Shown: in pieces, positions 14,217 through 21,016 of the stretch
How the letters are laid out: every line of letters begins with the position of its first letter
How positions within the stretch are numbered: position 1 is the stretch's first letter
Origin: a virus
Virus record (IMG/VR): IMGVR_UViG_3300020377_000042
Span: 1 to 21,016 of that record
Length of the DNA: 21,016 bases
Reading direction: 5' to 3' (one strand)
Program-made: the position numbers and the translations under genes
Notes under the pieces: generated by a model
The model's database searches: none
Told to the model about the DNA's origin: nothing
What the model saw: only the letters and a program-made list of their open reading frames with translations

Positions 14217-14238
14217 ATAGTTATTGAAAGGAATTGAT

Positions 14239-14832
14239 ATGGCACGTAAAAATAAAAAAAGCGCCCACTATGTTAATAACGCTGATTTTTCTAATGCCGT
14301 AGTAGCTTATGTACATACAGTCAATGACGCTAAAGACGCAGGTAAAACTCTTCCAGTAGTACCAGATTATATAGCTCAGTGTTTTCTAAGTATCGCTGAA
14401 GGTTTGTCTCACAAATCTAATTTTATTCGCTATACATATCGCGAAGAAATGGTAATGGACGCAGTTGAAAATTGTCTTAAAGCAGTTGAGAATTATGACA
14501 TAGCTGCAGCTACTCGTACAGGAAAGCCTAACGCTTTTGCATACTTTACACAGATAACATGGTATGCATTTCTTAGACGTATAGCAAAAGAAAAGAAGCA
14601 ACAAGACATTAAATTAAAATATCTTACAAGATCTGGTATTGAGAACTTTGTTGATGGCGATATGTCAGATGGAAGTTGGCAAGTAGTAGGATCCTTTGTT
14701 GATACTCTTAGAGATAGAATAGACAAGGTACGGCATTCAGATCTAGAAGTTCAGCAGTATGCTAAAGAGGAAAAAGAAAAAAAGAAACGAGCTAAGATTG
14801 TAGATTCAGATTTACAGGAGTTTATGAAGTGA
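14239..14832 (+). CDS. 55: gp55, sigma factor for late transcription
   Basis: gp55 is the phage sigma-like subunit that directs host RNA polymerase to TATAAATA late promoters, activated by the gp45 clamp. The protein has 197 residues (T4: 185). Recognisable stretches are an early Y-V-N-N, I-A-E-G-L-S-x-K-x-N-F near residue 50, E-M-V-M-D-A-V-E-N-C-L-K-A-V-E-N-Y-D (about 68-86), and N-A-F-A-Y-F-T-Q-I-T-W-Y-A-F-L-R-R-I-x-K-E-K-K (about 97-120). These correspond to the sigma2-like helices of T4 gp55. The ATG at 14239 has AAAGGA upstream; an in-frame TTG at 14224 is not needed. Its stop overlaps the GTG of gene 47. Candidate target promoters exist upstream in this window. Confidence 0.92.
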   Translation: MARKNKKSAHYVNNADFSNAVVAYVHTVNDAKDAGKTLPVVPDYIAQCFLSIAEGLSHKSNFIRYTYREEMVMDAVENCLKAVENYDIAAATRTGKPNAFAYFTQITWYAFLRRIAKEKKQQDIKLKYLTRSGIENFVDGDMSDGSWQVVGSFVDTLRDRIDKVRHSDLEVQQYAKEEKEKKKRAKIVDSDLQEFMK

Positions 14833-19799: not shown

Positions 19800-20173
19800 A
19801 TCCATTTGAATATGTCAATGCTATTAATATGACTAAAAAAGATATTATGGTAGATGATCTTGCGGAGAAAGCATATAATCCTTTTATGGTTAATCGTGCA
19901 TTATCTTACTTTCAAGATACAGTATTGTTTGCTAATGAAATGAATGTCAATCACACAGTCGATAAGCGTTTACAATTCGATTTTTTTATAAATATGGTCA
20001 GGAAACGGAAACGCTTTTCAAAATGGCAAAAGTCTGTTTCTAATAATGACGTGGATGTTGTTAAGGAATATTATGGTTATAATAACGAAAAAGCCAGACA
20101 AGCCTTAACTCTTCTTACAGCTGAACAACTCAGCGAATTGAAACAGAAGGTTTATAAAGGTGGAAGAAAATAA
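19796..20173 (+). CDS. 62: gp62 clamp-loader small subunit (short form)
   Basis: gp62 is the single non-ATPase subunit that completes the gp44/gp62 clamp loader. This protein has 125 residues, clearly shorter than T4 gp62 (187) and closer to my memory of marine T4-like versions. Recognisable parts are Y-N-P-F-M-V-N-R-A-L-S-Y-F-x-D-T-V-x-x-A-N-E-M-N (about 27-50), Q-F-D-F-F-I-N-M-V-R-K-R-K-R-F-x-K-W (about 60-78) and a C-terminal helix with L-T-A-E-Q-L. The start is TTG at 19796, with GGAGG upstream and a 4-nt overlap with the previous stop. The weak start codon would keep gp62 low relative to gp44, matching the 4:1 complex. Its end overlaps regA by 14 bases. Confidence 0.88.
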   Translation: MNPFEYVNAINMTKKDIMVDDLAEKAYNPFMVNRALSYFQDTVLFANEMNVNHTVDKRLQFDFFINMVRKRKRFSKWQKSVSNNDVDVVKEYYGYNNEKARQALTLLTAEQLSELKQKVYKGGRK

Positions 20174-20564
20174 TATAATAGAGTGGACACCTGCCTCTAT
20201 GTTAGAGGTTACACTAAACGAGCCAGATGACTTTTTAAAGGTTCGAGAAACGCTTACCCGTATTGGAGTAGCGTCACGTAAAGACAAGAAACTATATCAA
20301 TCTTGTCATATTTTGCACAAACAAGGCAGATACTTTATTGTGCACTTTAAGGAATTATTTTTGCTTGATGGCAAGAAGTCAAACTTAGAAGAAAATGACA
20401 TTGCCAGGCGAAATACAATTGCGCAGTTAATGAGCGATTGGGGACTTATATCAATAGATACTACAGTAGAGCCTTTGGCTCCTATGAGACAAATAAAGAT
20501 CATTCCGTTTAAAGAAAAGAATGATTGGGAGCTTTGCCCTAAGTATAACATTGGTTCAAAATAA
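20160..20564 (+). CDS. regA: RegA translational repressor
   Basis: RegA is an RNA-binding protein that blocks ribosome binding on many early phage mRNAs, including those of clamp and loader genes in T4. The protein has 134 residues from GTG at 20160, or 121 from ATG at 20199 (T4: 122). The family match is strong: E-V-T-L-N-E-P-D-D-F-L-K-V-R-E-T-L-T-R-I-G, D-K-K-L-Y-Q-S-C-H-I-L-H-K-Q-G, I-V-H-F-K-E-L, D-W-G-L-I, and C-terminal W-E-L-C-P-K-Y-N-I-G. The GTG start has AGAAGG about 9 nt upstream and overlaps gene 62 by 14 bases; the ATG has no good Shine-Dalgarno but fits the family length. Last gene of the 44 unit. Confidence 0.93.
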   Translation: MEENNIIEWTPASMLEVTLNEPDDFLKVRETLTRIGVASRKDKKLYQSCHILHKQGRYFIVHFKELFLLDGKKSNLEENDIARRNTIAQLMSDWGLISIDTTVEPLAPMRQIKIIPFKEKNDWELCPKYNIGSK

Positions 20565-20565
20565 A

Positions 20566-20593
20566 TTACGAGTAGCTGGTTTAAATCTCGTAA
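20566..20593. repeat. Inverted repeat after regA
   Basis: TTACGAG (20566-20572) and CTCGTAA (20587-20593) form a perfect 7-bp stem with a 14-nt loop, starting 2 nt after the regA stop. No T-run follows on the + strand, so it is not a standard + strand terminator. On the minus strand it is followed by TTTATTTT. A weak promoter-like pair, TTTAAA (20580-20585) and TATATA (20602-20607), overlaps it. It may be an mRNA 3'-end stabiliser or a processing site. Confidence 0.45.
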
Positions 20594-20632
20594 AAAATGA
20601 TTATATATAGTATAGAGTGCAGAATGATCTGG

Positions 20633-20663
20633 CTCTTTTACAATCTTGCTTGACATAAAGGAG
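20633..20663 (+). promoter_or_regulatory. SD-masking hairpin, candidate RNA thermometer for hsp20
   Basis: In the hsp20 leader, CTCTTTTA (20633-20640) can pair along all 8 positions with TAAAGGAG (20656-20663), with one G-U wobble. This would bury the whole Shine-Dalgarno sequence. The 15-nt loop can form an extra 3-bp CAA/TTG stem. The ATG at 20670 is 6 nt outside the stem. Short U-rich, wobble-containing stems over the Shine-Dalgarno are the hallmark of fourU-like and cyanobacterial hsp17-type thermometers. The pairing is seen in the sequence; heat control is inferred. Confidence 0.55.
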
Positions 20664-20669
20664 ATAACA

Positions 20670-21016
20670 ATGACAGGCTTATCAGGACTATTCCCGCGTG
20701 CATCATTTGTAGGGTTCGACCATTTATTCAATGAACTAGAATGGACGGCTAAACATGCAAACGATCACTACCCTCCACATAACATAATTAAAACAGGCGA
20801 ATCTGATTATCTAATAGAGATGGCAGTTGCAGGTTTTATGAAAGATGAATTATCAGTAGAAGTAAAAGATAGAACTTTAACTGTAACTGGTGATCATATT
20901 TCTAAGGGTAGGGAGTTTATTCACCGCGGTATTTCTACTAAGAAGTTTAAGCGAACATTTAGGCTGTCTGAGCACGTACAAGTGCACGGAGCAGATATTC
21001 AGGATGGTATACTTGC
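20670..21016 (+). CDS. hsp20: Small heat-shock protein (Hsp20 / alpha-crystallin), truncated by window end
   Basis: This is an ATP-independent holdase chaperone that binds unfolding proteins as large oligomers; marine T4-like phages commonly carry one. Only the first 115 complete codons are inside the window, and the gene runs off the end. A short N-terminal arm (M-T-G-L-S-G-L-F-P-R) is followed by Y-P-P-H-N-I-I (about 35-41), the usual lead-in to the alpha-crystallin domain. Next come Y-L-I-E-M-A-V-A-G-F (about 47-56), L-S-V-E-V-K-D-R-T-L-T-V-T-G (about 61-74) and the F-K-R-T-F-R-L strand (about 94-100). The ATG has a very good AAAGGAG 6 nt upstream, but that site can be masked by an upstream hairpin. 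About 105 nt of non-coding leader separates it from regA. Confidence 0.93.
   Translation, partial: MTGLSGLFPRASFVGFDHLFNELEWTAKHANDHYPPHNIIKTGESDYLIEMAVAGFMKDELSVEVKDRTLTVTGDHISKGREFIHRGISTKKFKRTFRLSEHVQVHGADIQDGIL

Follow-up and report, generated by a model that had tools for sequence, protein, structure and literature searches.

The short ROSE-like RNA thermometers, exemplified by the Pseudomonas ibpA leader (RF02523), are the described systems closest to the locus studied here. In the accessible part of PMC3669281, they are marked by a 61-62 nt leader that folds into two hairpins, the first of which (hairpin I) is stable, by U(U/C)GCU opposite the Shine-Dalgarno sequence (SD) in the second hairpin, and by an AUG that is left free. 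U(U/C)GCU, a bulged G, two hairpins and a small heat-shock protein (sHsp) gene likewise appear as marks of the type in the accessible parts of PMC3669281 and PMC11182007. Classical ROSE elements of rhizobia and enterobacteria likewise have an anti-SD with U(U/C)GCU and an sHsp gene as their target, and that same part of PMC3669281 gives them three to four hairpins.

Phage genes under translational temperature control are also known, namely lambda cIII, SPbeta blyA with a fourU element, and a sigma70-gene fourU, and warming lowers expression in the lambda case (PMC10586365, PMC11182007); in the accessible parts of these papers, none is described as being of ROSE type or as acting on a chaperone gene. 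We found no report of a ROSE element in a phage in the literature searched, which lay mostly outside subscription journals, and the main text of a study on marine-virus sHsps (PMC3827213) contains none of the terms "thermometer", "promoter", "untranslated", "upstream" and "regulat". The manA RNA motif (RF01745) also occurs in marine T4-like phages and on some chaperone genes, being located upstream of ibpA chaperones among others in marine and cyanophage sequences according to the accessible part of PMC2864571.

Here, we examined the window, i.e., the whole 21,016-base virus record analysed (positions 1 to 21,016 of IMGVR_UViG_3300020377_000042). We show by computation that its hsp20 gene is preceded by a conserved and covarying two-hairpin structure, which is found 5' of dnaK in other viral contigs and is predicted to occlude the SD. 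We consider it highly probable that the hsp20 leader acts, by the mechanism set out below, as a ROSE-like RNA thermometer of the short form with two hairpins. As a class, this candidate ROSE-like thermometer is widespread and, within the literature searched, new for phages. An earlier sequence-only reading of the window had already proposed an RNA thermometer on this gene; the functional class stood, in the form of a covarying, SD-occluding ROSE-like leader, and the helix that it named did not.

A two-hairpin leader upstream of hsp20

The window comes from a T4-like phage and has genes for a late sigma factor (14224-14829; phrog_234, E 1.6e-52), a sliding clamp, a clamp loader and RegA, followed by hsp20. 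The last is an Hsp20/alpha-crystallin gene on the plus strand (20670-21016; phrog_432, E 2.1e-28) that is truncated by the record end, and its earlier identification as the hsp20 of a T4-like phage holds. The regA gene (20160-20561) lies directly 5' of the hsp20 leader, and a T4-type late-promoter-like box, TATATATA (20602-20609, plus strand), lies just 5' of it. A box of this kind is present in 44 of 46 distinct leaders of the window's clade, drawn from the best 80 of 588 loci, and in 39 of the 46 it ends 9-10 nt 5' of the bulged G of hairpin I, a spacing that puts the probable transcription start at the base of this hairpin, near 20613/20614. With a start at 20614, the leader would be about 56 nt long. 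A scan of the region for sigma70 promoters and simple terminators found none. Between regA and the box, we observed an inverted repeat, TTACGAG...CTCGTAA (20566-20593), whose minus-strand copy is flanked by a T run, and which the terminator scan did not call.

The leader as a whole, running from near the probable 5' end of the transcript up to and including the AUG, spans 20613-20672 on the plus strand, as delimited by a covariance model (R1, below). Hairpin I (20614-20636) reads AGAGU, bulged G20619, CAGA, the loop AUGA, UCUG and GCUCU, and in folds begun at 20613 it forms with a pairing probability of 0.92-0.94 from 5 to 42 °C. Alongside it, the same folds give hairpin II (20643-20665), in which the anti-SD arm AUCUUGCUU (20643-20651), containing the ROSE motif UUGCU and a bulged G20648, makes 8 bp with the SD arm AAGGAGAU (20658-20665), an assignment of the anti-SD arm to which fold and conservation both point. 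The ATG of hsp20 (20670-20672) lies 3' of hairpin II and is unpaired in the fold of the 20613-20672 leader, in agreement with the earlier statement that the AUG lies immediately beyond the SD helix.

The features by which short ROSE-like elements are recognised in the literature can thus be located one by one in the window: within the 3' hairpin, U(U/C)GCU is paired to the SD (20643-20651 with 20658-20665), the SD hairpin has a bulged G (G20648), the two hairpins, with a stable one 5', fall within the two to four of ROSE-like elements, and the element occupies the 5' UTR of a heat-shock gene, as delimited by the probable transcript start, with its AUG free. The Pseudomonas ibpA element described in part in PMC3669281 (RF02523) is alike in leader length (about 56 nt here versus 61-62), in its stable hairpin I, where the ROSE_3 match reads AUGCC...GGGU with an unpaired G, and in its U(U/C)GCU-SD hairpin II, free AUG and sHsp gene. 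It differs in that the window leader is phage-borne and A/U-rich, has a late-promoter-like box 5' and a heat response that is predicted, and in that the phage class also occurs on dnaK and scores below the Rfam cut-off. Classical ROSE differs in its three to four hairpins versus two here.

We propose that transcription from the T4-type late promoter would begin near the base of hairpin I, which, being stable and carrying its bulged G, would fold first and might insulate the leader. Hairpin II, in which AUCUUGCUU and AAGGAGAU are predicted to pair around the bulged G, would then hide the SD and leave the AUG free. Upon warming, this weak, A/U-rich hairpin may loosen and let ribosomes bind, so that output of the small chaperone would rise without new transcription. 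We infer that the leader opens with heat in vivo around some set point and that the phage gains from it: the element could offer a virus a protein-free means of fitting late chaperone output to the temperature of the host cell.

To examine conservation, the best 80 of 588 loci confirmed in a protein search of viral contigs were used. After L041 (too short) and identical leaders were dropped, 46 of 81 leaders were distinct (the window and 45 relatives). What they have in common is a bulged-G hairpin whose stem letters vary freely, and AAGGAG before ATGACAGGC; UCUUGCUU is invariant in all 46, and the bulged G20648 is an invariant column in the clade alignment A1. Hairpin II is paired in 99.5% of cells, with an outermost pair that is U-A instead of A-U in seven of the 46. 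Because hairpin II is almost invariant within the clade, its covariation there depends on that one pair. More distant phages have UCGCU for the UUGCU of the window, so that a U-G pair becomes C-G.

Covariation was also scored in A5, an alignment of the 43 leaders matched by R1, where 93.6% of cells are paired versus 45.5-54.7% with slid partners. Changes on both sides occur at 10 of 17 pairs (7 of 9 in hairpin I and 3 of 8 in hairpin II), those of hairpin II amounting to only five cells, and the SD would be conserved for ribosome binding in any case; the outermost modelled pair of hairpin I is unpaired in 26 of the 43 rows. The covariation score was 0.456 versus 0.145 in shuffles and was reached by none of 500 shuffles, as was the case for four of the five measures, the fifth (further pair types) being reached by 19 of 500; since the rows are related, these shuffle counts do not equal probabilities. 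Overall, the analysis supports a conserved leader structure with covarying stems, whose predicted effect is to cover the SD of a phage sHsp gene; translation from the window leader would be expected to rise on warming as hairpin II melts.

Occurrence among phages and cellular genomes

R1 was built from 14 virus-record leaders, none of them from the window's clade and one of which precedes dnaK. The first MAFFT alignments of distant leaders (A2 and A3) misplaced the SD in some rows, and a 14-row seed (A4) was used instead, in which one row, L209, agrees poorly with the register set for hairpin I. In the window, the sole R1 match within 21 kb is 20613-20672 (31.3 bits, E=2.4e-6). Across a test set of 45 sources totalling 200 kb (the window, 31 clade loci and 13 annotated non-seed phages), R1 at E up to 1 matched 43, once each and always in the hsp20 leader, the weakest being L208 (E=0.28); it gave no match in L203 and L213. 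On 38 viral loci found by protein, R1 matched 30 at E below 1e-4, nine of which (L217-L224 and L254) are identical or close to the seed and ten of which (L233-L242) share one score; seven others matched only at E about 1, and L247 did not match. These eight weak or missing loci form one group, and the three members examined (L245, L247 and L251) have both hairpins and an extra one between them. At about 885-960 of these loci, an inverted repeat separates hairpin I from the anti-SD, perfect in L245 and L251 and with one mismatch in L247; this group possibly represents a three-hairpin form.

The anatomy was also looked for in 20 annotated hsp20 records. They were picked for diversity, with their leaders unseen, among the rows listed by two tblastn searches (60 of 506 records each). 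The bacterial-looking L343 was left out of the phage tally. Hairpin I with a bulged G, a ROSE-type anti-SD and an SD were found in 17 of the remaining 19, sixteen of which read U(U/C)GCU and one, PA5oct, UUGCG; the anatomy is absent from Vibrio phage PWH3a-P1 and S-TIM66. In the Prochlorococcus phage P-HM1 (L344), the annotated GTG start of hsp20 (339) falls within hairpin I, and an in-frame ATG 51 nt downstream, past the SD, fits better as the start.

We then compared the class with the Rfam models. In the window, Rfam gave no match at gathering and none in 20500-20750 at E up to 10, and the window does not attain the 43 bits of ROSE_3 (RF02523). At their cut-offs, the current Rfam ROSE models matched none of 60 phage loci, the window included, ROSE_3 matched none of 20 clade loci, and none of 20 cellular loci tested reached a Rfam cut-off; a ROSE_3 search across 114 genomes of one class gave no match even in the controls and so carries no weight. 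With relaxed thresholds, ROSE_3 matched seven of 39 phage loci, all below the 43-bit cut-off (34.1, 26.8, 23.7, 35.1, 33.6, 26.1 and 21.6 bits; three at E below 0.01 and four at E 0.08 to 0.5). On L343, whose leader resembles that of Pseudomonas ibpA, ROSE_3 scored 69.2 bits and the only R1 match was the same stretch with the same helices (E=0.0021). L343 (OQ572409.1) is an unverified record that bears the name "Pseudomonas phage Y7" and is described as a "complete phage genome", and it resembles bacterial ibpA DNA. Going by its anatomy and by the cross-matches between R1 and ROSE_3, the phage class is built like ROSE and probably works in the same way, and by score it stands outside the Rfam family. 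As for other known elements, manA RNA (RF01745) had no match at gathering in the window or in 20 related loci and none in 20500-20750 at E up to 10, and the UUUU-SD pairing examined for a fourU element is the helix of the earlier reading, which is not conserved.

A DNA pattern of TCTTGCTT, a gap, AAGGAG, a gap and ATG, scanned in viral contigs, gave at least 122 matches in 120 stretches. Since the pattern pre-selects the hairpin II motif, its loci were used to study hairpin I, gene context and SD accessibility and to seed the model, and were kept out of the hairpin II covariation analysis. Among the 122 matches listed, the element is followed by hsp20 in 102, by a truncated hsp20 in one and by dnaK in eight, and the other 11, with another or no clear heat-shock gene, were set aside. 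In L086 and L125, dnaK and hsp20 each have their own element and clpS comes next. Heat-shock clusters of dnaK, hsp20 and clpS were seen in L086 (775-4057), L125 (4102-8444), L169 (7280-10559) and L198 (5998-8771), with a clpX-like gene upstream in L125 and a heme oxygenase gene after clpS in L086. Pfam supports dnaK, hsp20, clpS and heme oxygenase in L086, ClpX, dnaK and ClpS in L125, and ClpS in L169, and the remaining cluster genes were assigned from their translations alone. In L115, an element with a well-formed hairpin I precedes a 65-aa frame (start 4207) that has no Pfam match; this may be a target other than a chaperone, or a gene with a frameshift.

From bacterial genomes, 80 hsp20 loci were retained, and R1 gave 18 matches in 16 of them (E up to 1). 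Seven loci were matched at E below 0.001, of which five belong to Pelagibacteraceae/Pelagibacter (SAR11) and the other two (L255 and L256) to one Rhodobacteraceae-labelled assembly, Water_Bin34. RegA-type genes were seen upstream of hsp20 in this assembly, by PF01818 on L255 and L335 and by eye on L339. A phage RegA in this position suggests that Water_Bin34 probably contains phage contigs binned with a bacterium, and L255 and L256 were excluded from the cellular count as probable phage DNA. Three SAR11 genomes searched whole with R1 had exactly one match each (E up to 0.001), at hsp20, where the neighbors of the element are cellular genes, e.g., prolyl oligopeptidase together with glutathione synthetase or aldo/keto reductase. 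One clear class is thus found on chaperone genes across numerous marine phages and in front of dnaK in viral contigs, and hsp20 of SAR11 bacteria has a matching element.

Predicted SD accessibility and alternative readings

In folds at 20 °C, the median fraction of unpaired SD was 0.03 for the 45 clade leaders. It was 0.09 for 114 other leaders, most of which were picked by motif, versus 0.53 for the 399 control starts, and 20% of these control starts also fall below 0.3. Predicted accessibility at 20, 37 and 42 °C was 0.03, 0.09 and 0.13 in the window and, nearly equal, 0.03, 0.10 and 0.13 in the ROSE_3-positive L343, whereas in two SAR11 leaders and that of S-RIM8 the SD was 0.24-0.34 open and nearly flat from 5 to 42 °C. 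The predicted melting is hence shallow, with 13% of the window SD open at 42 °C, in an energy model without G-G and U-U pairs; because such non-canonical pairs of ROSE are missing from it, set points are not readable from the model.

The behavior of the folds near the start codon bears on an alternative in which the leader is a two-state switch and not a simple zipper, with GCUUG alternating between the SD (off) and the CAGGC in codons 2-3 (on). When the leader was folded with nine coding bases, the GCUUG-CAGGC helix was preferred and the SD freed, and with 30 coding bases, hairpin II won; the two states are close in predicted energy. CAGGC (20674-20678) is complementary to GCUUG (20648-20652) in the anti-SD and may compete with hairpin II, and codons 2-3 read ACA GGC (20673-20678, plus strand) without exception in the 46 distinct clade leaders, although just 54 of the 466 Gly codons found at codons 4-115 are GGC. 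A flipping GCUUG would, if real, explain why these codons are frozen at the nucleotide level. The base after GCUU could be assigned in 155 distinct leaders, with four left without assignment: it is G in 58, all with ACAGGC, and in none of the 93 leaders lacking ACAGGC. However, four ACAGGC leaders carry T instead of G, and all of the ACAGGC/GCUUG evidence could reflect the common descent of one clade. Over 58 N-terminal groups, gene starts pair with the anti-SD better than control starts do, with nine groups in the top 5%, but the trend is weak, the groups are not independent, and the group of the window (MTGL) ranks only at the 30th percentile. Furthermore, the alternative fold with codons 2-3 pairs the AUG too in the window. 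Taken together, we regard the two-state switch as unlikely. A broader reading, in which a wide, unrecognised ROSE-type family on hsp20 and dnaK (in clusters with clpS) of marine T4-like and large phages is combined with such a switch in the window's clade, is for us a tentative one, short of being likely.

It is less probable still that the structure is real and serves another signal, be it that RegA or another protein binds the hairpins, or that hairpin I is a 5' stability cap with an SD hairpin tuning basal translation. Protein sites often take the form of a stem with an invariant bulged G. Also in favor of this reading, regA (20160-20561) adjoins the leader on its upstream side, and the spacing of the late-promoter-like box places the transcript start near hairpin I. 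On the other hand, the element favors heat-shock genes (103 hsp20, one of them truncated, and 8 dnaK among the 122 matches listed), and the ROSE motif in the leader argues against the sensing of something other than heat. It also occurs without an adjoining regA in PA5oct, Phosso and Melnitz-3, as well as between cellular genes in SAR11 genomes. The ROSE-like thermometer remains our preferred reading.

The sequence-only reading had placed the anti-SD at CUCUUUUA (20633-20640), which would melt on warming. The letters are as it gave them, CTCTTTTA at 20633-20640 and TAAAGGAG at 20656-20663, and 8 bp including one G-U are possible; such an 8-pair upstream run to the SD was found at 7 of 398 control gene starts (1.8%), these being SD-bearing starts of the same and related phage loci, excluding those with an upstream U(U/C)GC motif. 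A run of this kind is uncommon, yet too frequent to serve as sole evidence. In the leader fold, 20633-20636 is the 3' arm of hairpin I and the rest of the proposed arm is linker. The true anti-SD, AUCUUGCUU, begins 10 nt further downstream: coverage of the SD by pairing is indeed predicted, with 20643-20651 as the partner instead of 20633-20640. In folds from 20613, the proposed helix has a mean probability of at most 0.014 at all seven temperatures from 5 to 42 °C, and it dominates only when the RNA is cut at 20633, reaching about one half when cut to 20625-20680, i.e., with cuts that delete or shorten the competing hairpin. The fold of 20610-20690 that had been suggested was run and is misleading because the cut points choose the winner; folds begun at the likely transcript start replaced it.

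Across the 46 distinct leaders, 61% of the cells of this helix pair, the same as in shuffles (61%) and within the range of slid versions (38-64%). An alignment-free search for the longest run gave at most 6 bp between the equivalent arm and the SD in 45 of 45 relatives, with 8 only in the window. These relatives retain the SD without pairing to the 20633-20640 arm, which is the observation named beforehand as refuting the helix, and the first half of that arm covaries with the 5' arm of hairpin I. We therefore consider the 20633-20640 version very improbable. Chance complementarity in AT-rich DNA without any regulatory structure deserves hardly any credence: upstream runs of at least 6 pairs to the SD occur at 17% of the 398 control starts, but chance is contradicted by the held-out R1 matches, the gene specificity, the covariation of hairpin I and the U-G to C-G change in hairpin II.
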